From: an uncultured Bacteroidaceae bacterium
Lineage (GTDB): Bacteria > Bacteroidota > Bacteroidia > Bacteroidales > Bacteroidaceae
Reading direction: 5' to 3'
Length of the DNA stretch: 52,543 bases
Assembly (NCBI GenBank): GCA_905236985.1
Contig: CAJORF010000060.1
Span: 1 to 52,543, forward strand
Shown here in pieces: positions 12,947-52,285 of the stretch. Under the pieces are notes generated by a model, which ran no database searches, had not been told where the DNA came from, and saw nothing but the letters and a program-made list of their open reading frames with translations. A program made the position numbers and the translations under genes. The first letter of the stretch is position 1, and each line of letters starts with the position of its first letter.

Positions 12947-12988
12947 GACTCTCCCCTGCCCCTCCCTCTTAGAGAGGGAGCAGTTACC
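12947..12988 (-). repeat. Palindromic element copy 1 (reverse)
   Basis: Plus strand runs GACTCTCCCC ... CCTCCCTCTTAGAGAGGGAG ... GTTACC. It lies 11 nt after the rplY stop and forms an inverted doublet with copy 2 across 118 nt. Confidence 0.85.
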
Positions 12989-12992
12989 CAAC

Positions 12993-13034
12993 AAGGACGC
13001 AAGGTGCATGAAAAGAGCTTTGCGTCTTTCTTTT
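12993..13034 (+). terminator. Rho-independent terminator after rplY
   Basis: GACGCAA pairs with TTGCGTC around a loop of about 18 nt, with flanking AAG/CTT pairs, followed by a T-rich tract (CTTTCTTTT). Confidence 0.6.
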
Positions 13035-13072
13035 AACCATTTCTCTACAACATTTATACTCTACACCCTATT

Positions 13073-13771
13073 GTGTTTGCTTTTTTAAGAAAACTATTTG
13101 CAAAGGAAACTGCTCCCTCCCTAACAGGGAGAGCGGGGGAAGAGTCCGGTCTTTCTATTGATATGGAAAAATTCCTTATCGTGGGTCTCGGTAATATGGG
13201 GCCCGACTACGAAGGCACACGCCATAATGCCGGCTTCCGCATCGTGGATGCCCTGGCCGCTTCGGTCAACGAAGAAAAAGGCAAGGAGACAGTGTGGGAG
13301 GACAAGCGCTACGGTTTCGTCACACACATCAGCGTGAAGGGTCGTCAGCTCATCCTCTTGAAGCCCACCACATACATGAACCTCAGCGGCAATGCCGTGC
13401 GCTACTGGATGCAAAAGGAGAACATCACGCTGGAGCATTTGCTCGTCTGTGTGGATGACATCGCCCTGCCTTTCGGACAGATGCGCATGAAGCCCAGCGG
13501 TAGCGATGCTGGCCACAACGGCCTGAAGCACATCGCACAGATCTTAGGCACTCAGCAGTATGCCCGCTTGCGTTTCGGTATCGGCAACGAGTTCTTCCCT
13601 GGCCAGCAGGTGGATTATGTCCTCGGGCGTTTCACCGAGGAGCAGGAAGCCCTCATCCCCGAGTGCACCAAAGTCGCCGCTGCCGCCATCAAGACCTTCT
13701 GCTTGGTAGGGATACAGATGGCGATGAATCAACTAAATAGAAAGCAGACTCTCCCCCCGCCCTCCCTATAA
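13073..13771 (+). CDS. pth: Peptidyl-tRNA hydrolase
   Basis: Releases tRNA from prematurely dropped peptidyl-tRNAs. The conserved core begins [20 protein letters not shown] with catalytic His in RHNAGF, followed by [15 protein letters not shown] and [20 protein letters not shown]. Most Pth proteins start at this core, here ATG 13163 (202 residues). The frame is open to a GTG at 13073 (232 residues), giving [12 protein letters not shown] and then an in-frame palindromic element ([13 protein letters not shown]). I take the GTG because analogous doublets in this window straddle starts, but 13163 is a real alternative. The stop codon and last residues (TLPPPSL) are supplied by another copy of the element. 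Confidence 0.93.
13107..13147 (+). repeat. Palindromic element copy 2 (forward, in the pth N-terminal frame)
   Basis: ACTGCTCCCTCCCT then AACAGGGAGAGCGGGGGA and AGAGTCC. Read in the pth frame it encodes [13 protein letters not shown]. Partner of copy 1. Confidence 0.85.
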
Positions 13772-13788
13772 GGGAGGGGACGGTCACC
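13747..13788 (-). repeat. Palindromic element copy 3 (reverse, supplies the pth stop codon)
   Basis: Plus strand GACTCTCCCCCCGCCCTCCC, TATAAGGGAGGGG, then GGTCACC. The TAA inside its central loop (13769-13771) is the pth stop codon. Inverted partner of copy 4 across about 70 nt. Confidence 0.88.
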
Positions 13789-13834
13789 TTTCAAGAATCG
13801 CATCCATTCACTCTTTTTGATAAATAGTCATCTT

Positions 13835-14368
13835 ATGAAGTCAACCAGCCAAATACATTCTGCTCCCTCCCTGATAGGGAGGGCGGGGGGAGAGTCCGCT
13901 GGAGGTGGGTCTTCTGCCCGCCTCGACCGCTGGCTCTGGGCAGCCCGTATCTTCAAGACCCGCACGATGGCAGCGGCTGCCTGCAAGCGTGGACAGGTCA
14001 GCATAGGTGGTCAGCAGATGAAGCCGTCGCGCATGGTGAAGGTGGGGGATGTCATCGATGTGCGCAAGCCGCCCATCACCTATAGTTTCCGCATCCTTCA
14101 GGCCATTGAGCACCGCGTAGGTGCCAAACTCATCCCTGAGATCCTCGAGAACGTTACAGCTCCCGAGCAGTATGAGCTATTGGAGATGAATCGCATCAGC
14201 GGCTTCGTCGGGCGCGCACGAGGTACAGGACGTCCGACGAAGAAGGAACGTCGCGCGCTGGATGACTATACCTCCACCGCTGCCGACATCCCCACTTTCT
14301 TCGGCGATTTTGACTTCGACCTTGGGGATGATGACAGCGATGAAACTACTCCGCCACGATTCGGCTGA
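13835..14368 (+). CDS. S4-domain RNA-binding protein (Hsp15/HslR-like)
   Basis: A 177-residue protein with an S4 RNA-binding domain at residues about 29-90: [20 protein letters not shown], then [20 protein letters not shown] and [10 protein letters not shown]. This matches the Hsp15 family that binds 50S subunits carrying stalled nascent chains. A basic segment ([15 protein letters not shown]) follows, and the tail is acidic ([13 protein letters not shown]). The N-terminus MKSTSQIH is followed by an in-frame palindromic element ([13 protein letters not shown]) absent from the family core. A TTG at 13817 would add six residues; the ATG is preferred. Its 3' end overlaps convergent pepT by 23 nt. 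Placement after pth suggests a translation quality-control group. Confidence 0.88.
13859..13897 (+). repeat. Palindromic element copy 4 (forward, in the S4 gene N-terminus)
   Basis: TGCTCCCTCCCTGATAGGGA then GGGCGGGGGG and AGAGTCC, translated as [12 protein letters not shown] starting about eight codons after the ATG. Confidence 0.9.
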
Positions 14369-15644
14369 TGTTGACGATGGTCTGCATCGCCTTCTCCATC
14401 GATTGGATGGGAACGAATTCGTGGCGACCATGGAAGTTGAGACCACCGGCGAAGATGTTGGGACAAGGTAAGCCCTTGAAGCTGAGCTGAGCTCCGTCCG
14501 TACCGCCGCGAATGGCCTTCACCGTGCAAGGAACACCTGTTTCCTCGATGGCACGGCGTGCGATCTCAATGATGTGCTCCTTGCCTTCCAGTTGCTGACG
14601 CATATTGTAGTACTGGTCGCGGATGTCAGCATGTACGATGCCCTCGCCATAGCGTTCCTCGAAGACTGCCACTACATCCTCGACATGAGCCTTACGCTGT
14701 TCAAAGCGCTGACGGTCGTGGTCGCGGATGATGTAGCTGAGGGTAGCCTCCTCGACTGTAGCCTTGATGCCCGTAAGATGGTAGAAACCCTCGTAGCCTT
14801 CAGTGCGCTCAGGTACTTCGTCGGCTGGCATAGCCTTGATGAAGTCTGCAGCGATGAGTGCTGCATTGCGCATCTTATCCTTAGCATAACCCGGATGAAC
14901 GTTAAGCCCCTTGATGTGAATAGCGGCACTGGCAGCATTGAAATTCTCGTACTCCAGTTCGCCGACCTCTGAGCCATCCATGGTGTAAGCCCATTCGGCC
15001 CCGAACTTCTCGACATCGAAGAGATGCGCACCAGCACCAATCTCCTCGTCGGGGTTGAAAGCGATGCGGATGCGTCCGTGGCTGATTTCAGGATGTTCCA
15101 TGAGATAAGACATGGCCTCCACGATTTCTGCGATGCCCGCTTTGTCATCGGCACCGAGGAGTGTGTGCCCGTCAGTGACGATGAGGTCTTCGCCGATGTG
15201 GTCAAGCATCTCGGGGAACATCTTGGGCGACGTGACAATACCCTCCTCAGCATCGAGGACGATATCACCACCATCGTAGTGCTCTACGATGCGCGGATGG
15301 ATGTCAGCACCCGAGCAGTCGGGACTGGTGTCATAGTGAGCGATGAACCCTATGGTAGGCACGTCGGCAGGAACATTGGAGGGCAGGGTGGCATAGATAT
15401 AACCTTGCTCGTCCATCTCCACCTCTTCTAATCCCATCTCTTCCAACGTGTCAGCCAGATGGCGTGCAAAGATGAGCTGCTTCGGGGTGCTCGGACAACC
15501 CTCGGCCTCTTCGGACGATTGTGTGTCGTAGGAGACGTAGTCGAGAAATCTTTCTACTAAAAAAGAACCACCCCCAGCCCCTCCCGTAAGGGAGGGGTGA
15601 GGCTGGCACATTGAATCATTATTATCCATATAATCTATTTCCAT
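14346..15644 (-). CDS. pepT: Peptidase T (tripeptide aminopeptidase)
   Basis: A cytosolic zinc M20 exopeptidase that removes the N-terminal residue of tripeptides. At 432 residues it is slightly longer than usual (about 410). Family landmarks are [28 protein letters not shown] (zinc His and catalytic Asp), [26 protein letters not shown] (catalytic Glu-Glu) and the C-terminal [15 protein letters not shown]. The N-terminus carries an in-frame palindromic element ([13 protein letters not shown]) just before LVERF, which accounts for the extra length. Two ATGs are possible, 15644 (MEIDY) and 15629 (MDNND). It follows the ROK kinase on the same strand and overlaps the S4 gene tail to tail by 23 nt. 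Confidence 0.96.
15566..15605 (-). repeat. Palindromic element copy 5 (in the pepT N-terminus)
   Basis: Plus strand ACCACCCCCAGCCCCTCCC then GTAAGGGAGGGGTGAGGCTGG. On the coding strand it encodes [13 protein letters not shown]. Subtype with TGGGGGTGG instead of CGGGGGGAGAGTC. Inverted partner of copy 6. Confidence 0.85.
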
Positions 15645-15658
15645 ATCTTTGGTTACTT

Positions 15659-15695
15659 TCCGCCCCTCCCTAATGGGAGGGGTCGGAGATGGGTC
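15659..15695 (+). repeat. Palindromic element copy 6 (between the glucokinase stop and pepT start)
   Basis: CGCCCCTCCCTAATGGGAGG then GGTCGGAGATGGGTC. It begins one nucleotide after the glucokinase stop codon in transcription order and lies upstream of pepT. Inverted partner of copy 5 across 53 nt. Confidence 0.85.
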
Positions 15696-15696
15696 T

Positions 15697-16656
15697 TTAC
15701 TTCACCTCCCATCCCAGCGCACTGGCACCGAGGACTGCAGCACCGGCACCATCGAGCTCGCTGACGAGGAACTTGGCCTTGTCCTTGAAGACGCGGAGGA
15801 CGGTAGCGTCGTAGGCTTTTTTAATGGGATCCATGATGAGATCACCGGCCTTGGTGAGTCCGCCGAAGAACACAAATGCCTCGGGGCTGCTGAAGGCGGC
15901 AAAGTCGGCGCAAGCCTCGCCGAGGATGCGCCCAGTCTCCTCGAAGATCTCTTTGGCCACTTCGTCACCCTTACCTGCTGCGATGGCTACGTCCTTCGAC
16001 TCTATCTTGTCTAAAGGAATCTCGCGGAGGATGGTTGGCTTGTCGGTTTTCTCGATGATCTCGCGTGCTGTGCGAGCAACGCCTGTAGCTGAGCAGTATG
16101 TTTCCAAACAGCCCTTGCGACCGCAGCCGCACTGGCGACCGTTCTTCTCCACGATGACATGACCGAGCTCACCGGCCATACCGTCGCAGCCCAGCACCAT
16201 CTGTCCGTTGACCACGATGCCCGATCCAACACCCGTACCTAGAGTGATCATGATGAAATTCTGCATCCCTTTAGCTACGCCATATTGCATCTCGCCCATA
16301 GCGGCAGCGTTGGCGTCGTTGGTCAGGCGTACGGGAATGCCGAGACGGTCGCTGAACATCTGCGCAAGAGGTATCTTACCCTTCCAAGGGAGATTGGGTG
16401 CAAATTCAATGGAACCGGTGTAGTAGTTGCCATTGGGGGCACCGATACCCATAGCGTGAATCTTCTCGATGCCGCCTACCTGTTCGATGATGGGACGGAG
16501 GGCAGCTACACAGTCATCCACATATTGATTGATGTCGCCATGTCCAGCTGTTTTCACACGTGTGGAAGCGATGATGTTTGCATTCTGATCTACGATACCG
16601 AACTCAGAGTTGGTGCCTCCGAGATCCAGTCCGATAACATAAGGTTTCTTTTCCAT
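15697..16656 (-). CDS. ROK-family glucokinase
   Basis: A 319-residue sugar kinase, most likely phosphorylating glucose with ATP. The phosphate-binding motif is [18 protein letters not shown]. Substrate residues lie in [12 protein letters not shown]. The ROK zinc signature is [15 protein letters not shown] followed by [13 protein letters not shown]. The ATG at 16656 (MEKKPYV) is chosen; the longer upstream frame overlaps the promoter and is Lys/Phe-rich noise. A TATCTTTG -7 box lies 60 nt upstream. It may share a transcript with pepT, which begins shortly downstream after a palindromic element. Other ROK members are repressors or N-acetylmannosamine kinases; there is no N-terminal helix-turn-helix here. 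Confidence 0.92.
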
Positions 16657-16715
16657 AGTTGGGTGAGTTGATAATTTTTTGTTGTTAAGTGAGTGTTTCT
16701 TCGTGTTTCGAGCGT

Positions 16716-16723
16716 CAAAGATA
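16716..16723 (-). promoter_or_regulatory. -7 box of the glucokinase gene
   Basis: The minus strand reads TATCTTTG, 60 nt upstream of the ATG. No convincing -33 element was found. Confidence 0.55.
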
Positions 16724-16803
16724 ATGAAAGTTTGTTTTCCGAAGAAGAAAACAGCAAGAAAAGTACACTTTTCGCCTAAAAGACGTGCTTTTCTCGAAAA
16801 AAC

Positions 16804-16835
16804 TTTCTTCTTTTCGGATAAAAATGCGAACTTTG
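16804..16835 (+). promoter_or_regulatory. Promoter of the LysE operon
   Basis: TTTC at 16804-16807, a 20-nt spacer, then GAACTTTG at 16828-16835 (one mismatch to TAnnTTTG). It lies just before the chosen LysE ATG at 16845, so the leader would be very short. Confidence 0.45.
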
Positions 16836-16844
16836 CAGCCAAAT

Positions 16845-17498
16845 ATGTGGTTTGAACACGTTACATTACTTGATTTGACCGTAAAAGGTCTGATCGTGGG
16901 CATCGTGGCAAGTGCCCCGATGGGGCCTGTAGGTGTCCTCACTATCCAGCGAACATTGAATAAAGGGCGCTGGTATGGATTGGTGACAGGACTGGGTGCC
17001 GCCATCAGCGACATCCTCTATGCCATCCTCACGGGTGTGGGTATGAGCTTCGTCATTGAGTTCATAGAGCAACCCCGCACGATGTACATTCTCCAGCTCG
17101 TGGGAAGTATCCTGCTCTTTGCCTTCGGCCTCTATACCTTCCGGACAAAGCCGCAGCTGCGTCTTACTTCGCACAACAAAGGAACGCTGGCACGCAACTG
17201 TTCCACAGGTTTCTTAGTGACGGTGAGCAACCCGCTCATCATCTTCCTCTTCATCGCACTCTTTGCGCGCTTCACCTTCGTCGTGCCAGAGCATTTGGGC
17301 CAGCAGATCTTAGGCTATATCTCCATCTTCCTCGGCGCGATGCTGTGGTGGTATGGACTAACGTACATCGTAGATAAGCTCAGAACGAGTTTCAAGATGG
17401 AACGTATTGGATTGATTAACAGGATTATCGGGGTGATTGTGATGGTGGTGTCAATCTTGGGGCTGCTGTCCACGCTTCTCGGATTGACGCTGTACTAA
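16845..17498 (+). CDS. LysE-family amino-acid exporter
   Basis: A 217-residue inner-membrane protein of the LysE/RhtB translocator superfamily, predicted to export an amino acid or similar small solute. The N-terminal motif GLIVGIVASAPMGPVGVLTI with the conserved PxGP turn is characteristic, followed by GLGAAISDILYAILTG. Five to six hydrophobic segments are visible, the last near VIVMVVSILGLLSTLLGLTL. The ATG at 16845 is chosen over an upstream ATG at 16785, which would precede the likely promoter. It is one nucleotide from the DUF4924-like gene and starts a long plus-strand run. Substrate unknown. Confidence 0.88.
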   Translation: MWFEHVTLLDLTVKGLIVGIVASAPMGPVGVLTIQRTLNKGRWYGLVTGLGAAISDILYAILTGVGMSFVIEFIEQPRTMYILQLVGSILLFAFGLYTFRTKPQLRLTSHNKGTLARNCSTGFLVTVSNPLIIFLFIALFARFTFVVPEHLGQQILGYISIFLGAMLWWYGLTYIVDKLRTSFKMERIGLINRIIGVIVMVVSILGLLSTLLGLTLY

Positions 17499-17499
17499 G

Positions 17500-18030
17500 A
17501 TGAAGATTGCAAAGCTGTTAAAAGAGACAAACATTGCCGAATACGTCCTCTATATGTTTCAATTGGAGGATACGTTGCGGGCATACGACTGCGACGCTGA
17601 ACGCGTGGCAAAAGAATATATCGCACGTTTTGACTGGACGGATGAGGAGAAGAAGGCTGAGGAAGAATGGCTGAGTGGCCTGTGTACGATGATGCATGAA
17701 GAAGGCAAGCTGAAGAGCGGCCATCTGCAAGGCAACCTCGGCACCATCAGTCTGCTCACCGACCTCCACATCGAGCTGCTCAAAAGCCCCCAACATCCTT
17801 TCTATTCATCGGCCTACTACAAAGCACTGCCCTTCATCGTGGAATACCGCCAAAAGAGCCACGGCGAGGACAACTCCGAGCTGCTGAACTGCTTCGAAAT
17901 GCTCTATGCTGTGATGCTCCTGCGCCTGCAGAAACGCGAGATCAGCAAAGGCACTCAAGAAGCCCTCACCGCCGTCTCCAAGCTCATCGCCGCGCTGGCA
18001 GATGCCTGGAAAGTTTCGAAATCGTTATAG
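17500..18030 (+). CDS. DUF4924-like conserved hypothetical protein
   Basis: A 176-residue soluble, helix-rich protein beginning MKIAKLLKETNIAEYVLYMF. Conserved-looking segments include YIARFDWTDEEKKAEEEW, KSGHLQGNLGTISLLTDLH and YRQKSHGEDNSELLNCFEM. I recognise it as the Bacteroidota-specific DUF4924 type from memory, and its function is unknown. It starts one nucleotide after the LysE stop, so translation is probably coupled, and the rmlD-like gene follows after 15 nt. There is no signal peptide or membrane segment. Confidence 0.75.
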   Translation: MKIAKLLKETNIAEYVLYMFQLEDTLRAYDCDAERVAKEYIARFDWTDEEKKAEEEWLSGLCTMMHEEGKLKSGHLQGNLGTISLLTDLHIELLKSPQHPFYSSAYYKALPFIVEYRQKSHGEDNSELLNCFEMLYAVMLLRLQKREISKGTQEALTAVSKLIAALADAWKVSKSL

Positions 18031-18045
18031 CTATAATCGTAAATC

Positions 18046-18954
18046 ATGAATATCCTCGTTACAGGTGCCTGCGGACAGTTAGGCCATGAGATGCAGCTGC
18101 AAGCTGCGCAGAATCCTCAGCACAGCTGGTTCTTCACCGATGTGGTGACTTCGGCTCCTGCCACCGATCAGGTGGGCGGCGTTTTCGTCACTGTATCCCC
18201 CCTTGACATCACTGACCGCTCCGCCATCCTTGACTTCGTTGATGCCCATGAAATAGACATCATCGTCAACTGCGCTGCTTTCACTGCCGTTGACCGTGCT
18301 GAAAGTGAGCCCGAAAAGGCGCACCTCCTCAACGCTACCGCCCCTGGCTATCTCGCTGCCGCCATTGAACATCGCGGGGGACACCTCATACATATTTCTA
18401 CTGACTACGTCTTTGACGGCACAGCACATATACCGTACACTGAAGACCAGCCCCCATGTCCCGTCTCGGTCTATGGCCGCACAAAGCTCGCAGGTGAAAA
18501 AGCTGTCCTTGCAGAGAATCCTTCTGCGATGATCATTCGCTCCGCGTGGCTCTACAGCCGTTTCGGCAACAACTTCGTGAAGACCATGCTCCGTCTCGGA
18601 CAAGAGAGAAGCGAGCTCGGCGTTATCTTTGACCAAATAGGTACGCCCACCTACGCGCGCGACCTTGCCGCGACCATCATGACGGCCATCAACAACGGCA
18701 TCGTGCCTGGCATCTTCCACTTCTCCGATGAAGGAGTCTGCTCGTGGTATGACTTCACCTTAGCTATCCACCGCCTCGCCGACATCACCACTTGCCACGT
18801 GCGTCCCCTCCACACCGCCGAATATCCCACGCCAGCCTCACGTCCGCACTACGGCGTGCTCGACAAGAGCAAGATCAAGGCAACCTTCGGCATCAAAATT
18901 CCACATTGGGAAGCAAGCTTAGAGAAGTGCATCAAGGAACTGATGACAGATTAA
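18046..18954 (+). CDS. rfbD: dTDP-4-dehydrorhamnose reductase
   Basis: Catalyses the last step of dTDP-L-rhamnose synthesis (NADPH reduction of dTDP-4-dehydro-L-rhamnose). It is an extended SDR of 302 residues with nucleotide motif GACGQLGHEM, acidic and hydrophobic turns at IIVNCAAFTAVDRAESEPEK, and active-site YGRTKLAGE (YxxxK). The C-terminal region TPASRPHYGVLDKSKIKATF is typical of RmlD. No rfbA, rfbB or rfbC is nearby, so the other steps must be encoded elsewhere. It is linked to DUF4924 (15-nt gap) and followed by prfC after 80 nt. Rhamnose is also the backbone sugar of the rhamnogalacturonan attacked by the PL11 enzymes, but a functional link is speculative. Confidence 0.93.
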   Translation: MNILVTGACGQLGHEMQLQAAQNPQHSWFFTDVVTSAPATDQVGGVFVTVSPLDITDRSAILDFVDAHEIDIIVNCAAFTAVDRAESEPEKAHLLNATAPGYLAAAIEHRGGHLIHISTDYVFDGTAHIPYTEDQPPCPVSVYGRTKLAGEKAVLAENPSAMIIRSAWLYSRFGNNFVKTMLRLGQERSELGVIFDQIGTPTYARDLAATIMTAINNGIVPGIFHFSDEGVCSWYDFTLAIHRLADITTCHVRPLHTAEYPTPASRPHYGVLDKSKIKATFGIKIPHWEASLEKCIKELMTD

Positions 18955-19034
18955 CAGATGGCGAAATGACTATATAACGTCACATCGATATAACGATATT
19001 CCGAAATCTCGAAATAAAAACTTAAAAAAATCTC

Positions 19035-20603: not shown

Positions 20604-20606
20604 AAA

Positions 20607-25091: not shown

Positions 25092-25097
25092 TTAGAC

Positions 25098-28241: not shown

Positions 28242-28254
28242 CTCTCAACTACTA

Positions 28255-28836: not shown

Positions 28837-28846
28837 CACCCTCTAC

Positions 28847-30737: not shown

Positions 30738-31760
30738 ATGGATAATCATCATACATCGCGCCAGGCTCTCCCCTCCCTGGCGGGAGAGGACGGGAGTGGG
30801 TCTTTGAACATCGTCTTCATGGGCACTCCCGAGTTCGCAGTGGAGTCCCTCAAGAAACTAGTTGAGAATGGGTATCATGTCGTGGCGGTTGTCACAATGC
30901 CGGATAAACCTGTTGGTCGTCACCACGACACCTTGCAGGCCTCGCCCGTCAAGCAGTATGCCCTCAGTCAAGGACTTCCTGTGTTGCAGCCCGAACGTCT
31001 GAAGGACGAAACATTCCTTGAGGAACTGCGCAGCTATCATGCAGACCTCCAGATTGTCGTCGCCTTCCGTATGCTGCCCGAAGTGGTGTGGGCGATGCCG
31101 CCTTTGGGAACGTTCAACCTTCATGCAGCCCTGTTGCCGCAGTACCGTGGCGCAGCACCCATCAACTGGGCAGTCATCAATGGCGAGACGGAAACGGGCG
31201 TCACCACTTTCTTCCTCGACCACGACATCGACACAGGCCGCATCATCCATCGGGTGCCGTCGCCCATTGCCGACACTGACACCGTAGGCGATGTCTATGA
31301 CCGCCTGATGTACCTCGGTGCCGATCTCGTTCTTCGCACCGTCGATGACATCGCCGCCGGGAATATTCAACCCATCGACCAAAGCAGCGTACTCGGCGAT
31401 TTGTCCGCCGAGACTCTTTTAAGGCCAGCTCCCAAGCTCTCCCGCGATAACACCCAGATCCTCTGGCATCAACACACCGTCAAGTCGGCCTACGACTTCA
31501 TCCGCGGCCTCTCCCCGTACCCTGGTGCTTGGACAACGCTTCGTACTGCTGACGGCAAGGACACGCAGCTCAAGGTTTTCTTCTCTGAGAAAGAAACCAC
31601 CTTCCCCGCCGACGGCAATGAATATGGTCCCCTACTCATTCACTTGCGCGATGGCTACCTCCGCCTCACCGACATCCAGTTAGCTGGCAAGCGGCGCATG
31701 AGCGTACAGGACTTCCTCCGAGGAGCGCATCTCGAAGGTGCAGAGCTCGTTGAGCTATAG
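30738..31760 (+). CDS. fmt: Methionyl-tRNA formyltransferase
   Basis: Formylates initiator Met-tRNA using 10-formyl-tetrahydrofolate. The 340-residue protein has an N-terminal formyltransferase domain (LNIVFMGTPEFAVESLKKL; FNLHAALLPQYRGAAPINWA with catalytic Asn/His; GVTTFFLDHDIDTGRI with catalytic Asp) and a C-terminal OB-like domain (about 215-335). The family normally starts just before RIVFMGTPEFA. Here MDNHHTSRQ and an in-frame palindromic element (ALPSLAGEDGSGS) precede it. No other ATG lies between 30738 and the core; a TTG at 30804 is the only alternative start. Confidence 0.97.
   Translation: MDNHHTSRQALPSLAGEDGSGSLNIVFMGTPEFAVESLKKLVENGYHVVAVVTMPDKPVGRHHDTLQASPVKQYALSQGLPVLQPERLKDETFLEELRSYHADLQIVVAFRMLPEVVWAMPPLGTFNLHAALLPQYRGAAPINWAVINGETETGVTTFFLDHDIDTGRIIHRVPSPIADTDTVGDVYDRLMYLGADLVLRTVDDIAAGNIQPIDQSSVLGDLSAETLLRPAPKLSRDNTQILWHQHTVKSAYDFIRGLSPYPGAWTTLRTADGKDTQLKVFFSEKETTFPADGNEYGPLLIHLRDGYLRLTDIQLAGKRRMSVQDFLRGAHLEGAELVEL
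30764..30802 (+). repeat. Palindromic element copy 8 (forward, in the fmt N-terminus)
   Basis: GGCTCTCCCCTCCCTGGCGG then GAGAGGACGGGAGTGGGTC, encoding ALPSLAGEDGSGS nine codons after the ATG. Spacer to copy 7 is 68 nt and contains the fmt start codon. Confidence 0.8.
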
Positions 31761-37609: not shown

Positions 37610-38797
37610 ATGTACGGAAAAATGCAAGAACATCTTCAGCAGACGCTGAAGGAGATCCGCGAGGCTGGTCTCTACAAGGAAGAACGCCTCATCGAGAGTC
37701 CACAGGCTGCCGCCATCGAAGTGGCCGGCAAGGAAGTGCTGAATTTCTGCGCCAACAACTACCTTGGCCTGAGCAACCACCCGCGCCTCATCGAAGGAGC
37801 CAAGAAGATGATGGACGTCCGCGGCTACGGTATGTCGAGCGTGCGCTTCATCTGCGGCACACAGGACATCCACAAGGAACTGGAAGCCGCCATCAGCCGC
37901 TTCTTCAAGACCGAGGACACCATCCTCTACGCTGCCTGCTTCGACGCTAACGGCGGCGTGTTCGAGCCCCTGCTCACCGAGGAGGATGCCATCATCAGCG
38001 ATGCCCTCAACCACGCCAGCATCATCGACGGTGTACGCCTCTGCAAAGCCAAGCGTTACCGCTATGCCAACGCCGACATGGAAGATCTGGAGCGTCAGCT
38101 GCAAGTCGCTCAGGAACAGCGTTTCCGCATCATTGTGACCGATGGTGTGTTCTCTATGGACGGTAATGTAGCTCCGATGGACAAGATCTGCGACTTGGCA
38201 GAGAAATACGATGCCCTGGTGATGGTCGATGAGAGCCACTCAGCAGGTGTTGTCGGTGCTACGGGTCGCGGTGTCAGCGAGTTCTACAACACCTACGGTC
38301 GCGTGGATATCTACACCGGCACGCTCGGCAAGGCATTCGGCGGTGCTATGGGCGGTTTCACAACAGGTCGCAAAGAGATCATCGACCTCCTGCGCCAGCG
38401 TTCGCGCCCGTACCTCTTTAGTAATTCCCTCGCCCCGGGCATCATCGGTGCTTCATTGGAGACCTTCAAGATGCTGGAAGAAAGCAACGAGCTACACGAC
38501 CGTCTCGTGGAGAACGTTACCTACTTCCGCGACAAGATGATGGCCAGCGGTTTCGACATCAAGCCCACTCAGAGCGCGATCTGCGCCGTGATGCTCTACG
38601 ACGCTCCTCTCTCGCAACGCTTCGCAGCCCGCTTACAGGACGAAGGCATCTACGTCACAGGCTTCTACTATCCCGTTGTGCCGAAGGGTCAGGCTCGCAT
38701 CCGCGTGCAAATCAGCGCAGGCCATAACCGCGAACAGCTCGACAAGTGCATCAACGCCTTTATCAAGGTGGGCAAGGAACTTGGAGTGCTTAAGTAA
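37610..38797 (+). CDS. kbl: Glycine C-acetyltransferase (2-amino-3-ketobutyrate CoA ligase)
   Basis: A 395-residue PLP enzyme of the alpha-oxoamine synthase family that splits 2-amino-3-ketobutyrate with CoA into glycine and acetyl-CoA. Motifs: [14 protein letters not shown], the glycine-rich [51 protein letters not shown], and PLP Lys241 in [15 protein letters not shown]. It could be confused with 8-amino-7-oxononanoate synthase, but the N-terminus and the divergent tdh gene point to Kbl. A palindromic element begins directly after the stop codon. Confidence 0.96.
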
Positions 38798-38839
38798 AAC
38801 CCCACCCCAGCCCTCCCTGTGGGGGAGGGAGTAGTTACC
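38798..38839 (-). repeat. Palindromic element copy 9 (reverse)
   Basis: AACCCCACCCCAGCCCTCCC then TGTGGGGGAGGGAGTAGTTACC, immediately after the kbl stop codon. Inverted partner of copy 10. Confidence 0.85.
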
Positions 38840-38864
38840 GAACACAAAAAAAACATGATGTACT

Positions 38865-39971
38865 ATGATGGATAAAGTATTAGTTATTCTTTCTTTTCTC
38901 ATTCTCCCCTCTAGCCTTTATGCTCAGGTAACCGCCCCCTCCCTTAGGGGGAGGGCGGGGGGAGAGTCTTCTTTTTCCACCACTACGCCCATGGTTCACG
39001 ACCCGGTGATGGCCTACGAGGATAGTACCTATTACATCTACTCTACAGGCATGGGGGTACAGATGATGTGCTCTAAGGATTTACAGACGTGGACGGTTTA
39101 TCGCCGTCCCGCCTTGATGCCCATCGATGGACAGGATGTGCAGCAACGCCGCTTGATGCCTGCTTGGACAAACGACAGTGTGCCTGGGTTCCGAGGTCAT
39201 GTATGGGCTCCCGACGTCATTCGCTACCGCGACCGCTGGTGGATGGCCTATTCCTGTTCCACCTTCGGACGAAACACGTCGGCCATCGGCCTCGCCTCCT
39301 CCCCCACTCTCAACTTCCGCGACACGGTCAACTATCATTGGCGCGATGAAGGATGTCTGGTGGCTTCTCGGGAGAAGCGCGACCCGTGGAACGCCATCGA
39401 TCCCGCCTTCATCATCGACGAGTCAGATACACCTTGGCTTACCTGGGGCTCCTTCTGGGACGGCATACAGATGGTGCGTTTGGATTCGACGATGCATTTC
39501 GCTGTCGGTGCTGTACCCAAGACCATAGCCCGTCGCATCGCCCTGCGCGACACTCTGCGCGCTGAACCCAATCCCACATCGAAGTTTGCTGGACGTAATG
39601 CCATCGAGGCTCCATTTATCTTCCGTCACGGCGACTTCTACTATCTCTTCGTAAGCCACGACTATTGTTGCCGTGGTACAGACAGCAATTACAAAGTTGT
39701 AGTAGGACGCAGCCGAAAGGTCGATGGTCCATACGTGGATCGAACAGGGCGCGATATGGCCGAAGGTGGCGGCGAGCTCATCATCAAAGGCGATTACAAA
39801 GTATTCGAAGCGTCTGGCCACTGTGCCGTCTATCACCTGACGGATGGACGCGACCTGTTCATCTGTCACGGCTATAGCTACAAACACGCAGGACAAGCCA
39901 TCCTCATCCAACGTGAAATCCATTGGACTGAGGATGGCTGGCCCCAGTTAAAAATTGATCAAATCAATTAG
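38865..39971 (+). CDS. Secreted GH43 arabinanase/arabinosidase-like enzyme
   Basis: A 368-residue exported enzyme predicted to cleave alpha-1,5-arabinan. Signal peptide VLVILSFLILPSSLYAQ. Directly after it comes an in-frame palindromic element (TAPSLRGRAGGES). The five-bladed propeller shows the three GH43 acids: Asp46 in MVHDPVMAYED, Asp179 in WNAIDPAFIID and Glu248 in NAIEAPFIF. WAPDVIRYRDRWWMAYSCS is also typical of endo-arabinanase-like subfamilies. The start ATG 38865 (MMDKVL) lies inside the doublet spacer. Its stop overlaps that of convergent GH51 by three nucleotides. Together these two would debranch or degrade pectic arabinan. Confidence 0.88.
   Translation: MMDKVLVILSFLILPSSLYAQVTAPSLRGRAGGESSFSTTTPMVHDPVMAYEDSTYYIYSTGMGVQMMCSKDLQTWTVYRRPALMPIDGQDVQQRRLMPAWTNDSVPGFRGHVWAPDVIRYRDRWWMAYSCSTFGRNTSAIGLASSPTLNFRDTVNYHWRDEGCLVASREKRDPWNAIDPAFIIDESDTPWLTWGSFWDGIQMVRLDSTMHFAVGAVPKTIARRIALRDTLRAEPNPTSKFAGRNAIEAPFIFRHGDFYYLFVSHDYCCRGTDSNYKVVVGRSRKVDGPYVDRTGRDMAEGGGELIIKGDYKVFEASGHCAVYHLTDGRDLFICHGYSYKHAGQAILIQREIHWTEDGWPQLKIDQIN
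38927..38968 (+). repeat. Palindromic element copy 10 (forward, after the GH43 signal peptide)
   Basis: GGTAACCGCCCCCTCCCTTA then GGGGGAGGGCGGGGGG and AGAGTC, encoding VTAPSLRGRAGGES. The 87-nt spacer to copy 9 contains the start codon and the whole signal peptide. Confidence 0.9.
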
Positions 39972-41974: not shown

Positions 41975-42013
41975 AAGTGTTTGTATATAAAATGTGAATA
42001 ATTTGCACTGGAA

Positions 42014-45367: not shown

Positions 45368-45462
45368 ATCGAAGATGTTATCTAAAGAGCTAATTGTTGG
45401 TCAATAGTCAGGGAACGATGTATTTTCTCTTCTAAACGCTGTCTTATGCAGCGATTTCGGCA

Positions 45463-45470
45463 CAAAGTTA
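45463..45470 (-). promoter_or_regulatory. -7 box of the second PL11 gene
   Basis: The minus strand reads TAACTTTG directly after the T-run of the upstream gene's terminator. The expected -33 position falls inside the terminator stem and shows no TTTG. Confidence 0.5.
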
Positions 45471-45474
45471 AAAA

Positions 45475-45508
45475 AAAGTCCTTTCGCAGGGGATTGCGAA
45501 AGGACTTT
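45475..45508 (-). terminator. Terminator of the Cthe_2159-like gene
   Basis: A perfect 14-bp stem, AAAGTCCTTTCGCA (45475-45488) with TGCGAAAGGACTTT (45495-45508), loop GGGGAT, followed on the minus strand by a run of T. Confidence 0.9.
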
Positions 45509-45541
45509 ATTCTTATATTTTTATATTTTTTAATGGTTCAC

Positions 45542-47725: not shown

Positions 47726-47727
47726 GG

Positions 47728-48432
47728 CTATCGGATGTTCAGTTTGTAATTCCTATTGTTCGCGCTGATGATGTAAAGACCGTGCTTCAAGGTATTCTGA
47801 GCCTGTTGCAAACTTTCGAATGAGCCTACATATAAACCCGAAGTCGTATAGACCTTGACAGCAGTCGAAGTGCCGAGTTGAGAGATGGCATCTGTCTCGG
47901 CTTCACTTACGGTGAGGGTGTAAGAAGCGGCACCTGCTTCAAACTCTTCATTGCCATCAAACGTAGCTGTAATGGTGGCTGTACCAGCAGCGACCAGTGT
48001 CACCTTGCCGTTCTCGTCAACCGTAGCTACATTCTCGTCGCTGCTCGTCCAGACGAGTGATAGTGCATTGGGATTCTCGATGGTGGGTTCCGTGAATTCC
48101 TCGCCAAGTGTGGCCGTGAGCTCTGCGATTCCTTCAGCGTATGCAAGACCGCTTTCCACCTTTTCGGGAGTCACAGGCGTTACAGGGGTCACCTCACCCG
48201 TCTCAGCAAATTGCATTGTAGCCAGGGCTGCGAGGTCGATGGAGGTGCTGCCGTCAGCGTTCTTGGCAACCAGTTTCCCATCGCTGAACGTGATTTCGAG
48301 TTCGGCTACACTCACCACGGTCTGAGTGCCCTCACTGTCGGTAAAGACGAGATAGGGTAACGTGTAATCGTCAGCCGTAGCCGTGCTAAAGCAAGCCGCT
48401 ATCAGCATGATACTCAATACTCTTTTCTTCAT
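47728..48432 (-). CDS. Small secreted Big2 protein with sorting-like tail
   Basis: A 234-residue exported protein. Signal peptide MKKRVLSIMLIAACFSTATA. Residues 22-85 are a beta-rich domain (YLVFTDSEGTQTVVSVAELE) similar in layout to the start of the following Cthe_2159-like protein. Residues about 100-180 are one Big2 Ig-like domain (SLVWTSSDENVATVDENGKV). The end (VYTTSGLYVGSFES ... HGLYIISANNRNYKLNIR) resembles a type IX sorting domain. It lies immediately upstream of the Cthe_2159-like gene with a good promoter, and may be an anchoring partner. The ATG at 48432 begins the signal peptide. Confidence 0.8.
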   Translation of the reverse strand: MKKRVLSIMLIAACFSTATADDYTLPYLVFTDSEGTQTVVSVAELEITFSDGKLVAKNADGSTSIDLAALATMQFAETGEVTPVTPVTPEKVESGLAYAEGIAELTATLGEEFTEPTIENPNALSLVWTSSDENVATVDENGKVTLVAAGTATITATFDGNEEFEAGAASYTLTVSEAETDAISQLGTSTAVKVYTTSGLYVGSFESLQQAQNTLKHGLYIISANNRNYKLNIR

Positions 48433-48461
48433 AATCGTAAGTAAATGGTTGAATTTCGGGA

Positions 48462-48492
48462 CAAAAGTACACATAATTATCCATACGTCAAA
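48462..48492 (-). promoter_or_regulatory. Promoter of the Big2/Cthe_2159-like operon
   Basis: On the minus strand TTTG (48492-48489), a 19-nt spacer, then TACTTTTG (48469-48462). Confidence 0.7.
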
Positions 48493-48530
48493 CACCTTCA
48501 GTCGTTTTATCAACGAAACGGCAAAAAAAC

Positions 48531-48570
48531 ACCACGAACGGACTCCTGCATGAGCGTGTCCGTTCGTGGT
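48531..48570 (-). terminator. Terminator of the GH27 gene
   Basis: A perfect 12-bp stem ACCACGAACGGA (48531-48542) with TCCGTTCGTGGT (48559-48570), followed on the minus strand by a run of seven T. Confidence 0.9.
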
Positions 48571-48592
48571 ATAATCGGGAGATGCAAATCAG

Positions 48593-50176
48593 TTATCTCG
48601 AGGCGTAGGGCATGACAGTCATGCGATCGAGATCGGGCATCCAATCGTTGTTATTGTACAGACGAATGGCATTCAGGCCGCGGTGCAGCGTCACATTGAC
48701 AGAGATGCGTCCACGAGCACCCCAGTTGCGGGAGTGAGTAGCCAGAGTGGTGACGTGTTCGCCATTCACGTCGAGTTCCATGGTGCGATCCTCACCACCG
48801 AAGTAGTCGAAGGTGAGCTTGTAGGAACCGTCGCGAGGAACGAAGACATCGCGCCACTGGAGGTCGTTGTCGGGACGGCTGCCCAACCAGCAAGCCTTGT
48901 AGCCACCGCTGGCGGTGCTATCAGCTACGAAGATGGCCGACTTTTCGTTCTGGTTGTTGCGCAGCTCCTGATAAGCGGGCAGGAATGCAGTCTCAGCTTC
49001 ATAGACGACACGCGGCACACGACGCTCTGCCTTGGCACGCAAGATCTTGGTACCATGAGCAGGAACGGTGAAGAGTACAGGCTCGGTCGTTGTCACGAAC
49101 TTCTCCTGACGGATGCAGTCGTAGTACTGAATGGAACCGCTCAACTCCAGCGTGAAGGGATGCACGAGCACGTGCTGTTCCTCGTCGCTTGGGTTATAGA
49201 CAGCGAAGGCACGCTCTGTGCCACCGCGTCTCTTGAGATCCTTGACCAGGATGTAGCACTCGCCCTGTTTTTCAGCAATATAAGCCTGTAGGTGCAGCGG
49301 GTCTTGGTTCAATGCGATGAGGTCTTTGTTGCACAGCAGCTTCAGCGATTCGGGACGTATCTTGGCCATATCGCAACCGATGAGCAGTGGCGAGGACATG
49401 ATGCACCACATTCCGAAGTGTGTCTCATCCTCGATCTGCGACATCGAACGGCCTACTTCCAACATATCCATATCGTTGTAGTGTCCGTCGTGGCAGAAAG
49501 CACTGAGATAGAGGTTCTCGGCAAGGATGGCCTTGACGCTCTTCCAAGCATCATAGATGTCGCCCGTCGTGCGCCATGAGTCGGCAACGTCAGCACTCCA
49601 TGTTCCGGGATAAGCCCAGCGGCACATATTATACACGATGCCGGGCTTGCCACAGTTCTTGATGGCGTTGGAGATCTTGGTGTATTGCGTCTGTTCGTCC
49701 AGTTTCATGTGAGCACCGCCGCAGTAATCAACCTTGATGAAGTCGAAGTCCCAGTCGATGAAGTACAGGTGGCAGTCCTCCTCTTCGTGACCAGCAAAAC
49801 CTACGCCGAGCCCCCAAGCATGACGATTGCCCGATCCACAGGTATTGTCGCCAGCGTCGGAGTAGATACCTGCCTTCAGGCCGAGGCTGTGGATATAATC
49901 GACGAGAGGGCGCATTCCGTTGGGGAACAGCTTGGTGTTGAGGCGCAGCTTGCCGTCGGCACCACGACCATCCCAGTAGCCGTCATCGATATTGATGAAC
50001 TGATATCCAGCGTCCTGCAAACCACTCTGGTGCATCGCATCGGCCTGCGACTTGATGAGCTCTTCATTGATGTTCAGGGCGAAGGTGTTCCACGAACTCC
50101 ATCCCATGGTGGGGGTTCGCTGTGCCACAGCCGTAGCAGCTACGGCGAGCATCAGAATAAGGAGATTTTTTCTCAT
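48593..50176 (-). CDS. Secreted alpha-galactosidase, GH27, with C-terminal CBM
   Basis: A 527-residue exported enzyme that removes terminal alpha-galactose. Signal peptide MRKNLLILMLAVAATAVAQ. The TIM barrel starts RTPTMGWSSWNTFALNINEE and contains FINIDDGYWDG, nucleophile Asp150 in FIKVDYCGG and acid/base Asp206 in WRTTGDIYDA. An antiparallel beta domain follows. Residues about 400-525 are a CBM35/CBM6-like jelly roll (VVYEAETAFLPAYQE ... GLNAIRLYNNND). GH27 also includes alpha-N-acetylgalactosaminidases and beta-L-arabinopyranosidases; the latter would suit pectin substrates. It has its own consensus promoter and terminator. Confidence 0.94.
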   Translation of the reverse strand: MRKNLLILMLAVAATAVAQRTPTMGWSSWNTFALNINEELIKSQADAMHQSGLQDAGYQFINIDDGYWDGRGADGKLRLNTKLFPNGMRPLVDYIHSLGLKAGIYSDAGDNTCGSGNRHAWGLGVGFAGHEEEDCHLYFIDWDFDFIKVDYCGGAHMKLDEQTQYTKISNAIKNCGKPGIVYNMCRWAYPGTWSADVADSWRTTGDIYDAWKSVKAILAENLYLSAFCHDGHYNDMDMLEVGRSMSQIEDETHFGMWCIMSSPLLIGCDMAKIRPESLKLLCNKDLIALNQDPLHLQAYIAEKQGECYILVKDLKRRGGTERAFAVYNPSDEEQHVLVHPFTLELSGSIQYYDCIRQEKFVTTTEPVLFTVPAHGTKILRAKAERRVPRVVYEAETAFLPAYQELRNNQNEKSAIFVADSTASGGYKACWLGSRPDNDLQWRDVFVPRDGSYKLTFDYFGGEDRTMELDVNGEHVTTLATHSRNWGARGRISVNVTLHRGLNAIRLYNNNDWMPDLDRMTVMPYASR

Positions 50177-50228
50177 GACTTTACAAATAATGAGGGTTAG
50201 AAAGGTAATATTTTGTCGATTCTGTGTG

Positions 50229-50260
50229 CAAAGTAATAAAAAAGGTGTGGAATAGCCAAA
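50229..50260 (-). promoter_or_regulatory. Promoter of the GH27 gene
   Basis: On the minus strand TTTG (50260-50257), a 20-nt spacer, then TTACTTTG (50236-50229), one mismatch to TAnnTTTG. Confidence 0.65.
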
Positions 50261-50287
50261 TCTTTTGACCAAATCTTCGTTTTTTCA

Positions 50288-52285
50288 TCACCATTGCTCA
50301 TCGATATAGTCGGCCAGACGACGGTAAAAAGGCATACGGCAAAGCGTAGAGCGGTCACCTATTATAATAAGTTTCATGCGCGCACGTGTGATGGCTACAT
50401 TCATGCGGCGCAGGTCGCGAAGGAAACCGATATTTCCCTCTTCGTTGGAGCGGACGAGACTGATGACGATGACATCGCGCTCCTGCCCCTGGAAACCATC
50501 GACGGTGTTCACGGTGATGAGCGAGCGGAAGGGCTTCCAGAACTTATCCTGTCGCAGTAGGCGTCGCAGTAACTGCACCTGTCCCTTGTAGGGCGAGATC
50601 ATCCCCACATCCACGCGCTCCTCCAAGATCCTGTCCTTCCCAATCTTGTCGAAATAGCGTTGCAGGGTAGCGAGGGTCAACTGTGCTTCGGAAACATTAA
50701 CGCGGGATAAACCAGAGGAAGACTCAGGCTCTCCCCCCGCCCTCCCTATTAGGGAGGGAGCAGAATGTTTTGAAAGCAGTGTATTCTCTTTCTCGGAGGT
50801 GACCGCTCCCTCCCTTATAGGGAGGGCGGGGGGAGAGTCTATCCACTCAATAGCCGTATCCCAATCCAAAATCCCCCTGTACTTCACCTCCGGCGCGCTG
50901 GTCAGCTGTCCGCCATAGAACTCATGGTTGGGAAACTGCATGATGGTGTCGCACATGCGGTACTGCACCGTGAGCAGAGACACCACCCTCGGTTTATTCT
51001 CGACAATGTATTGCATCAGCGTCTTGTCCAGTCCACCATGCATGGCCTCAGGCGATTTGATGGTGGGCGGCAGCTGACGATGGTCGCCTGCGAGAATGAC
51101 GCGGTGAGCCTTGCGGATGGCTATCCAGCTGGCGGCTTCGAGGGCCTGGGCGGCTTCATCGATGAACAGCGTCCCAAACTTCATCCCCATGAGCAGACGG
51201 TTGGCAGAACCAGCCAGGGTGCAGGCTATTACCTTGGCATCACCGAAGAGAGCCTGATTGATGGTGTATTCGAGATCTACGGCACGGTCTTTGAGGCGGG
51301 CGATCTTCTGATGGCGACTCTCGCTGCTTCCGTTCTTCGAAGCGTAGATGTCGCGGATAGCCTTGCGCACTGCCCACAGATCGGAATAGAGCGGATGGCT
51401 CTCGAATCGACGTTCATAGGTGAACGACAGCATCTTATCCGTCACTCGCGTCGGATTGCCGATGCGCAGCACGCTGATGCCACGGTCCACCAGTTTCTCT
51501 GCAATCCAATCCACCGCCATGTTCGACTGAGCGCACACCAACACCTGATTCTCGCGTCGCAACGTCTCATAGATGGCCTCCACCAACGTTGTTGTCTTAC
51601 CCGTGCCTGGAGGGCCATGAACGACCGCCACATCCTTTGCCCACAGCACCTCATTGACTGCGGCCTGCTGCGAGGTGTTCAGCCACGGGAAGCGCACGGC
51701 ATTGAAAGTGAACTTGCCACAGGGCAGCGTCGAATGGAACATCTCACGCAGGTCAGCCAGGCGACCGCTCTTGGCGTTGATGACGTCGTCCAAGGCTTCA
51801 AACATCAAGCGGTAGGTCTGCTCGTCCAGATACAGTTGCACGCCAAGACGGTAGGCATCGCGTATTTGCTCCAACGCATCGGGCGACGGCAAGGCAATCA
51901 CCATCCTGTCCTCCTCGACATAGCTCACCTGTGCCACAAACTTGAAATAATGCAGCATCCCGCCCGTGCCATGGCGGTCGCCCGAGGCATCCTGCGAGAA
52001 GAAGCATACAGGCTTTCCGGGCTCAAACAAAGACGGCTCAGACCCCTCAAAATCTCCCTCACGGGAGGGATCGGGGGTAGATCTTGACACCTCCACCACC
52101 AACTGATCCAGCGAGTTATGATAGCTGCGCCCAAGCGTCAGCGGATACCAAGCCATCCCGCGTTGCACCTTGCGTTCGATGCCGGTAGCTTCGGTCAGCC
52201 GCTGGAACTCCTCCTTCTCATAGGCATATTCCGCCTGTAGCAGAGCCCGCTGTCGTTGTAATATGGTTAAAGGACTTTCAGCCAT
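50288..52285 (-). CDS. Upf1-like SF1 DNA/RNA helicase
   Basis: A 665-residue cytosolic superfamily 1B helicase (Upf1/SMUBP2-like). Motifs in order: Walker A GPPGTGKTTTLVEAI, Ia region VLVCAQSNMAVDWIAEKL, DEAA box TLFIDEAAQALEAASW, motif III LAGDHRQLPPT, QYRMCDTIMQFPNHEFY, motif V VNTVDGFQGQERDVI and motif VI MNVAITRARMKLIIIGD. The start MAESPLTILQRQRALLQAEY (52285) gives the usual N-terminus. Three palindromic elements are embedded in frame: one near residues 68-82 and an inverted pair near 483-520, between QYRM and motif V. Those stretches are not part of the normal family core. A complete promoter precedes the gene. Its biological role in bacteria is unclear. Confidence 0.93.
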   Translation of the reverse strand: MAESPLTILQRQRALLQAEYAYEKEEFQRLTEATGIERKVQRGMAWYPLTLGRSYHNSLDQLVVEVSRSTPDPSREGDFEGSEPSLFEPGKPVCFFSQDASGDRHGTGGMLHYFKFVAQVSYVEEDRMVIALPSPDALEQIRDAYRLGVQLYLDEQTYRLMFEALDDVINAKSGRLADLREMFHSTLPCGKFTFNAVRFPWLNTSQQAAVNEVLWAKDVAVVHGPPGTGKTTTLVEAIYETLRRENQVLVCAQSNMAVDWIAEKLVDRGISVLRIGNPTRVTDKMLSFTYERRFESHPLYSDLWAVRKAIRDIYASKNGSSESRHQKIARLKDRAVDLEYTINQALFGDAKVIACTLAGSANRLLMGMKFGTLFIDEAAQALEAASWIAIRKAHRVILAGDHRQLPPTIKSPEAMHGGLDKTLMQYIVENKPRVVSLLTVQYRMCDTIMQFPNHEFYGGQLTSAPEVKYRGILDWDTAIEWIDSPPALPIREGAVTSEKENTLLSKHSAPSLIGRAGGEPESSSGLSRVNVSEAQLTLATLQRYFDKIGKDRILEERVDVGMISPYKGQVQLLRRLLRQDKFWKPFRSLITVNTVDGFQGQERDVIVISLVRSNEEGNIGFLRDLRRMNVAITRARMKLIIIGDRSTLCRMPFYRRLADYIDEQW
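50728..50766 (-). repeat. Palindromic element copy 11 (in the helicase)
   Basis: Plus strand GGCTCTCCCCCCGCCCTCCC then TATTAGGGAGGGAGCAGAAT. On the coding strand it encodes [14 protein letters not shown]. Confidence 0.9.
50798..50839 (+). repeat. Palindromic element copy 12 (in the helicase, opposite orientation)
   Basis: Plus strand GGTGACCGCTCCCTCCCTTA then TAGGGAGGGCGGGGGG and AGAGTC. Read by the helicase it is in the other orientation and encodes [14 protein letters not shown]. It is 31 nt from copy 11. Confidence 0.9.
52041..52084 (+). repeat. Palindromic element copy 13 (single, in the helicase N-terminal part)
   Basis: GACCCCTCAAAATCTCCCTC then ACGGGAGGGATCGGGGG and TAGATC. On the coding strand it encodes RSTPDPSREGDFEGS. 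Diverged subtype without an inverted partner. Confidence 0.7.

Follow-up and report, generated by a model that had tools for sequence, protein, structure and literature searches.

The 52,543-bp window analyzed here, which is the complete contig C60 of an uncultured Bacteroidaceae bacterium, carries 12 copies of a palindromic element that recurs at least 167 times in the same genome and lies in frame inside many unrelated genes. We consider it probable that these elements form a non-autonomous family of mobile palindromes resembling REPINs (inverted pairs of repetitive extragenic palindromic, or REP, sequences), found as far as sampled in one genus, probably of rumen Bacteroidaceae or Prevotellaceae, with a protein resembling REP-associated tyrosine transposases (RAYTs) as the probable mover. 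It is a new and unusually protein-invading family of the REPIN-like kind. The first-pass annotation of this DNA had proposed a protein-invading selfish repeat; the invasion of proteins was borne out by 46 in-frame units, whereas selfish, RAYT-driven spread is the more conditional part, the RAYT-like genes being unflanked by the elements. Our analysis adds to that proposal a bias of the elements to gene starts and to one reading phase.

Anatomy and copy number of the element

Each arm of ~45 nucleotides (nt) has a loosely conserved 5′ extension (e.g., GTNACYG or ACATTCTG), a C/G-rich stem of 8 bp with a 3-nt loop, and a conserved unpaired tail, GGGGGGAGAGTC. The 127 gap-free copies among the 167 gave the consensus aa.gt.aCtgCTCCCTCCCT-3-nt loop-AGGGAGGGCgGGGGGAGaGTCT, with information content dropping sharply past GAGTCT at the outer end and declining gradually on the inner side. 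Arms tended to occur in pairs with their tails outward (40 of 43 neighbors less than 400 bp apart in our first list of copies and 52 of 55 less than 300 bp apart in the second); the outer ends of the element are inverted GACTC/GAGTC. The spacer was exactly 25 nt in 9 of 52 pairs, and its sequence was mostly related among them; longer spacers appear mostly unique and are often A/T-rich. The one dimer that we folded, a 121-nt pair, forms a single long hairpin (–44.5 kcal/mol, z –9.1), and short dimers were more alike than single copies (0.823 for 28 copies versus 0.748 for 46; 11 of 2000 permutations). At some ends the outer tail GGGGGGAGAGTCT is tandemly repeated in a manner resembling copying slippage (L098:7558-7678, in Mfd, and L025 and L027 near 1501-1600).

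Exact cores of the form CTCCCTCCCT-loop-AGGGAGGG occurred three times in the window and in none of 100 shuffles. (A pattern with a fixed 4-nt loop had no match in the window because the real loop is 3 nt.) A covariance model, R1, trained on 33 copies and with E-values that are to be read as rough, recovered 11 full-length copies in the window at E≤5e-7, together with four short matches on the opposite strand that echo these stems; the twelfth copy (52040-52085) is degenerate and was found by a fuzzy pattern only, which brings the count to slightly fewer than the 'at least 13' clear copies first reported. The host genome (G000; 2.80 Mb in 147 contigs, 85% complete) contained 46 matches to the exact core, of which three overlap at a single site, and none to a reversed control pattern. 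A first listing of this genome by R1 gave at least 150 matches (the best 150 of 1048 candidates), and the tally of 167 at E≤0.001 is a lower bound from 466 kb of sequence fetched around matches, window included. Although stem and tail are simple in composition, as would be expected of chance low-complexity G/C-rich sequence, the shuffle and reversed-pattern controls refute that origin, and the defined outer end and paired arrangement leave it a negligible likelihood. No Rfam family reached its gathering score over the copies; within the window only a tRNA did so, and a tRNA gene lies close to the contig end (52457-52530, + strand).

Copies inside genes and at gene boundaries

Coding calls were made with a three-periodic coding model trained on 218 long open reading frames (ORFs), which scored both flanks for 152 units. 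Among units flanked by coding sequence on both sides, all were in frame when the flanks were 90 nt long (7 of 7 at a threshold of 6; 19 of 19 at a threshold of 3), as were 23 of 24 and 30 of 33 with 150-nt flanks (thresholds of 6 and 4, respectively) and 46 of 56 at the widest setting (240-nt flanks, threshold 4), which confirmed the first-pass suggestion of a dispersed palindromic family lying in frame inside proteins. The 10 out-of-frame units of the widest setting, which include the three of the 150-nt setting, appeared by eye to be junctions between two genes, with no broken gene seen. We checked the 30 units of the 150-nt setting individually and called the rest of the 46 by the automatic criterion, under which both arms of one pair within one gene may count as two units. 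In-frame occurrence can be explained by the loss of disruptive insertions, and in-frame survival may reflect purifying selection. Across both strands of the 167 copies, 53 strand calls were internal and 47 N-terminal, such that internal sites were used below expectation (53 of 334 calls versus 26% expected).

The 30 units fall in 26 ORFs, of which 25 were scanned against NCBIfam and Pfam and 24 were assigned a family. Hosts include MutS2, UvrA (two genes, one with two inserts), Mfd, PolA (two inserts), DnaG, TruB, CysN, FGAM synthase, carbamoyl-phosphate synthase, CobT, a beta-ketoacyl synthase, a membrane pyrophosphatase, and an NrnA-like protein, as well as GltD-type, DsbD-like, ABC-F, LacZ-type, serine dehydratase, and other proteins. 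Seven of the 26 ORFs belong to DNA replication or repair when the helicase of the window is counted (PolA, DnaG, two UvrA, Mfd, MutS2, and the helicase), a raw count; a similar tendency of other REPs toward replication and repair genes has been reported in part of PMC3733652.

Inside these hosts the elements were read mostly in one register. Of 47 copies we dropped 11 for length and analyzed 36, in which sense copies were in phase 0 in 21 of 22 cases and antisense copies in phase 2 in 10 of 14. The peptide of the main register includes APSLx, and antisense copies give the reverse-strand peptide. Because phase 1 is open in 87% of the 127 gap-free copies (phase 0 in 95%), the openness of single arms fails to explain the choice of phase. 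As for pairs, all 16 short dimers were open in at least one frame on at least one strand, with at most one open frame per strand in 14, and 9 of the 11 short dimers in genes were open on both strands, 8 of these in the same register, while composition shuffles had an open plus-strand frame in 55%. Owing to the inverted-repeat structure of the 121-nt unit, one register yields almost the same peptide from either strand, and the openness of whole short dimers is mostly explained by this symmetry; the selection to stay open in both orientations that had been invoked for the family is not needed.

In the window, seven copies are in frame with a host gene: the helicase holds three, and GH43, S4, pepT, and fmt hold one each. 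The helicase, an AAA_11/AAA_12 protein of 691 residues (50291..52363, – strand), has two insertion loops. One holds the 121-nt inverted pair, with its left arm at 50723..50770 (–; R1 score 60.8 bits) and its right arm, beyond a 25-nt spacer, at 50796..50843 (+; 64.8 bits); the second variable loop holds the degenerate copy (52040..52085, +; antisense reading RSTPDPSREGDFEGS), which had no R1 match at E 0.05. The other in-frame copies sit at N termini. One is the right arm (13853..13900, +; 64.1 bits) in the N-terminal extension of an S4-domain protein; another (15561..15608, –; 43.7 bits) lies in the N terminus of an M20 peptidase resembling pepT, of which relatives without it exist, and has a partner in the ROK-pepT intergenic gap (15653..15699, +; 36.3 bits) whose outer tail starts beside the ROK stop codon. 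A single copy (30759..30806, +; 33.5 bits) lies in the N-terminal extension of fmt (MDNHHTSRQALPSLAGEDGSGSLNIVFMGTPEF). In the GH43 gene, a right arm (38925..38972, +; 63.5 bits) follows in frame an apparent signal peptide (SLYAQVTAPSLRGRAGGES), assigned by eye, and its left arm (38794..38841, –; 46.0 bits) lies upstream at the aminotransferase stop. For both GH43 and fmt, start codons are also present behind the element or inside it.

The four remaining window copies are intergenic or at gene junctions. The case of pth differs from the first account, which had listed it with S4, pepT, fmt, GH43, and the helicase as carrying an in-frame insert: the other five stood, and the pth copy is probably a leader. 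Here a left arm (12943..12990, –; 51.0 bits) lies just past the stop of L25, whose ORF ends at 12935, and the right arm (13103..13150, +; 58.4 bits) lies directly 5′ of the likely pth start with its frame open into pth. Because the Pth domain begins at ORF residue 35 and an ATG stands right behind the element, this arm is perhaps not translated. At its other end, the pth frame enters a further left arm (13743..13790, –; 64.7 bits) and terminates at a stop codon in its loop, ending QTLPPPSL-stop where the Pth proteins of relatives end NRK-stop. Including pth, four genes end in this way at a stop inside the element; the stop was set against relatives for pth only.

Gene starts were a favored location in one orientation. 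In sense orientation, 45 of the 167 copies lay between an ATG and the coding region, a 3.4-fold excess over random sites (7.9% of 20,000 in the same loci), and antisense copies did so in 2 of 167. Of the gap-free sense copies at gene starts, 30 of 37 were in phase 0 and 7 in phase 1. Because a further in-frame ATG, GTG, or TTG occurs within the element or the next 60 nt in 26 of the 45 sense cases, some N-terminal copies may be untranslated. We nevertheless regard it as unlikely that many of these cases are mis-called starts with the element in an untranslated 5′ leader: this account fits the pth copy, with its good ATG behind the element and its domain starting there, and mis-annotation of REPs at 5′ ends is known (part of PMC3733652), but such a codon is missing in 19 of the 45, for example in S4, pepT, and several copies that follow or lie within an apparent signal peptide, and the internal cases are independent of any start.

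The leaders preceding these copies recur. Among 24-nt leaders, at least 60% identity was reached in 1.7% of pairs, compared with a mean of 0.04% in shuffles, which also destroy the ATG spacing. One recurrent leader, ATGGATAAT...CGCCAGCC or close variants, precedes fmt, pepT, and a third gene, and another, ...ACCAGYCAAATACATTCT, precedes S4 and one other gene. Where pepT lacks the element, several relatives begin it directly with MERLIERF or a similar sequence, and in several species different elements occupy this position. On these grounds we entertain, as a tentative and somewhat doubtful extension, that long-spacer pairs act as translation-boundary cassettes, bringing both a leader with a start codon and a loop stop codon; inserted between same-strand neighbors, such a cassette would provide the upstream gene with a new C terminus and stop (TLPPPSL-stop), and the gene downstream would acquire a new start together with an N-terminal tag that is translated.

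Orthologous sites and distribution in the genus

Orthologues lacking the inserts, which the first-pass annotation had named as the comparison to make, were found within the same genus. For the helicase we compared the loci of 29 relatives, two of them incomplete at the site: both inserts of the window occupy loops of which more distant species have short versions, and in which L205, L207, L212, and L213 have other inserts. For twelve further hosts we examined one to five orthologues each, 40 in total, from nine relatives in the genus. The Mfd insert was missing in four of five orthologues and the fifth has a different, decayed one; the NrnA insert was missing in all three, one of which retains 17 nt that match the element's outer end exactly; and the four CysN orthologues were all eight residues shorter. 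The site in PurL was empty in four of five orthologues, with another insert in the remaining one; that in the pyrophosphatase was empty in three of four and filled in G003; and that in UvrA was empty in two of three and, in G152, filled and tandemly duplicated. G152 also has the identical peptide in TruB (one of five orthologues, the others having shorter or different linkers) and a filled GltD-type site (one of three). CobT, SdaA, PolA, and CarAB have variable loops and offered no clean empty site. Thus the inserts were mostly missing from relatives, or replaced by others in the same variable loops, and a few were shared.

Two observations arose alongside this comparison. In the UvrA of G152 (L443), the part of the insert duplicated in tandem is in frame, with 20 residues per unit. 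We also considered whether an element had fused CarA to CarB and rejected the idea, as a relative without the same insert (L458) reads through both parts and ORF lengths in the others are equal.

The profile scan extended from the host genome to its relatives revealed a family that varies widely within its genus. R1 matched (E≤1e-5) 83 of 121 genomes of the genus, 16 of them with at least 50 copies, in a survey that counted up to 50 per genome, and copy number ranged between species from none found to at least 50. Among 197 other genomes of the order, four had one match each (best 50.3 bits), with none in the two listed genomes of the same family. A strict pattern occurred in 20 of 81 genomes, own genome included, all in the same genus, and in 0 of 32 genomes from other families of the order. 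One exact pattern matched at least 112 stretches in GTDB records; the 80 listed came from metagenome-assembled genomes labelled Bacteroidaceae, Prevotellaceae, Prevotella, or Bacteroidales, except for one short contig labelled Ruminococcus. Because many of their names refer to rumen, omasum, or reticulum, we infer that the window comes from a rumen bacterium. A phage origin was rejected, as one exact pattern had no match in IMG/VR.

A candidate transposase and competing explanations

A RAYT-like gene, which the first-pass annotation had suggested seeking, is present as a family of proteins, two of them in G000. The Pfam model Y1_Tnp had no match in G000 or in several element-rich genomes, and we abandoned it as a detector, since most scores of the RAYT-like family were below or near its cut-off. 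Weak Y1_Tnp matches in relatives pointed to proteins of one family, which have a long C-terminal extension and the motifs H-x-H and YxxDNP; their H, H, Y, N, and P columns are invariant in 14 aligned sequences. The NCBIfam model NF047646 (REP_Tyr_transpos) matched all 14, with a best E-value of 4e-13 and every score below the curated cut-off (39.9 bits for member 1 and 31.1 and 36.1 bits for the two G000 proteins, compared with a cut-off of 80). A profile of the family matched the PDB transposase 2xm3, which we take to be ISDra2 TnpA, at E=8.5e-4, and a tree of 67 members showed many subfamilies. The C-terminal extension of these proteins (e.g., those encoded at L264:1924-3159, +, and L265:2008-3636, –) might be a Rossmann-type DNA-binding part, as suggested by weak matches of the family profile to DprA structures (E about 0.4). 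In the protein at L265:2008-3636 (–), residues about 205-310, between the H-x-H and Tyr motifs, form a low-complexity repeat (NEGQGGGTV-like) whose length varies strongly among relatives.

The family is found in 82 of the 121 genomes of the genus, including all 22 with at least 40 copies of the element. Copy number (counted up to 50) correlated with the number of RAYT-like genes per genome (Spearman 0.54), and genome completeness was not the explanation. Among the 88 distant species the comparison gave 17 of 21 versus 33 of 67 (p=0.012). We consider these proteins likely candidates for the mover. Their role is unproven because clade largely explains the correlation and the genes are not flanked by elements.

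Together these results suggest the following course. The unit consists of two ~45-nt arms, tails outward, around a spacer that is 25 nt in the best conserved form. New copies would probably arise by single-strand transposition catalyzed by the diverged RAYT encoded in the same genomes. Within genes, we found only in-frame copies; these occupy variable loops, follow signal peptides, or surround start codons, are read mostly in one register, and are presumably tolerated there. Later decay or partial deletion would leave species-specific linkers; an apparent footprint was seen once, in NrnA. An arm additionally provides the stop codon at some gene junctions, and the element perhaps carries the leader and start codon as well.

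Several observations weigh against this course or its parts. No transposition event was seen, and neither exact insertion ends nor target duplications could be read from the compared host loops because the insertion sites lie in hypervariable sequence. Inserts shared at the same site (TruB, UvrA, and GltD with G152; the pyrophosphatase with G003) mean that not all are recent. Single arms fold weakly (z –2.0 and 0.1 for two arms), and long-spacer pairs were not clearly more conserved than singles (555 of 2000 permutations). For the transposase in particular, the correlation is largely between clades (Spearman 0.44 within 33 genomes that were close by DNA identity among the matches listed, and 0.23 in the 88 distant ones); four genomes with 10–31 copies had no RAYT-like gene detected; and nine genomes with at least three such genes had no element at the threshold used. 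No element was found beside RAYT-like genes in 28 loci at E 0.05. A search of 70 loci up to E 0.5 gave 33 dispersed matches, most of them separated from the RAYT-like gene by ~1 kb or more, with the closest clear match ~260 bp away (L295). Inverted repeats next to six RAYT-like genes had no common structure.

The absence of systematic flanking, the genomes in which genes and elements part company, and the smaller association once clades are separated would all be expected if the elements were moved by something else (an insertion-sequence enzyme, replication slippage, or template switching) and the RAYT-like genes were a coincidence of clade; such a situation may hold for CGTC repeats, which have no linked transposase according to part of PMC3733652. 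We think a different mover fairly unlikely, given that the RAYT-like family is present in every genome with at least 40 copies and that the unit structure and the greater conservation of dimers over singles fit REPINs. The one-orientation excess at gene starts, the stability of the paired hairpin, and the recurrence of leaders upstream of different genes could instead point to host-beneficial hairpins (5′ leader control or terminators) that are kept by selection and translated in genes only incidentally. This we hold to be quite improbable, since 46 in-frame units lie within coding sequence, species of a single genus differ in copy number from 0 to at least 50, the orthologous sites of relatives are frequently empty, and no Rfam family reached its gathering score.

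The mobile, REPIN-like reading can be set beside systems already described. Our searches of the open-access literature, with subscription papers outside their scope, found, among the papers listed, no description of this element family or of in-frame palindromes in Bacteroidaceae. REPINs and REP doublets with RAYTs, as described for Pseudomonas and others in part of PMC3116915, share the short palindromic arms, inverted pairs, a conserved spacer class, dimers more similar than singles, and a REP-type tyrosine transposase family in the genome; like them, our elements exceed chance in copy number and form doublets foldable as one hairpin, the short doublets being the more conserved. In contrast to them, many of our copies lie in coding sequence rather than extragenically, there is no GTAG tag, and the RAYT-like gene is unflanked by repeats and has a long C-terminal extension. 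The GTAG- and CGTC-tagged REPs treated in PMC3733652 likewise form HH dimers with stems of ~8 bp, and that paper notes intragenic copies in replication and repair genes and mentions Bacteroidetes for CGTC. Those REPs lie mainly downstream of genes, whereas many of ours are at gene starts; our loop is 3 nt, and beside our stem, GTAG occurred in 0, CGTC in 1, and a CCTC variant in 6 of the 127 copies.

On the enzyme side, TnpAREP subclasses 2.4 and 2.6 of Bacteroidetes (part of PMC6006769) have the class 2 H-x-H and Y-x-x-x-NP motifs, and our proteins likewise combine an HUH-type H-x-H with a catalytic Tyr followed by NP. Their Tyr signatures are YIxNNP and YIH[QN]NP, whereas YxxDNP is usual here, where the W motif is not conserved in all members and the C-terminal extension is ~150 residues. 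For subclass 2.6, copies of the flanking structures have been reported elsewhere in the genome (part of PMC6006769).

The closest precedent for translation is the Rickettsia palindromic element (RPE), to which the elements had been likened at the outset, and the likeness holds by description: as recounted in parts of PMC10969869 and PMC3733652, RPEs are in-frame palindromes in unrelated genes, including truB and excision-repair genes, with a recurrent peptide, and in-frame insertion with a recurrent peptide is what we find here. RPEs measure ~150 bp and reside in an intracellular alphaproteobacterium, whereas our two-armed unit of ~121 nt belongs to a Bacteroidaceae/Prevotellaceae genus with a RAYT-like gene in the genome and shows a bias to gene starts. 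The kind of element is thus already known from RPEs and intragenic REPs; what differs is the host group, the start-site bias, the use of one register, and the RAYT-like family.

The family is a large example, from bacteria with no relationship to Rickettsia, of the in-frame incorporation of a palindromic repeat into proteins. Because the 121 genomes of the genus range from 0 to at least 50 copies, and the same loops are found empty, filled, duplicated, or apparently with a remnant, one could trace stepwise how mobile DNA gives rise to protein linkers and how these decay. The start-codon bias and the use of one register yield testable predictions on how hairpin elements pass gene boundaries, and the RAYT-like proteins, with their long C-terminal extension, are candidate enzymes. 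If the cassette idea were true, the elements would be an example of mobile DNA that survives in packed genomes by re-making gene boundaries.

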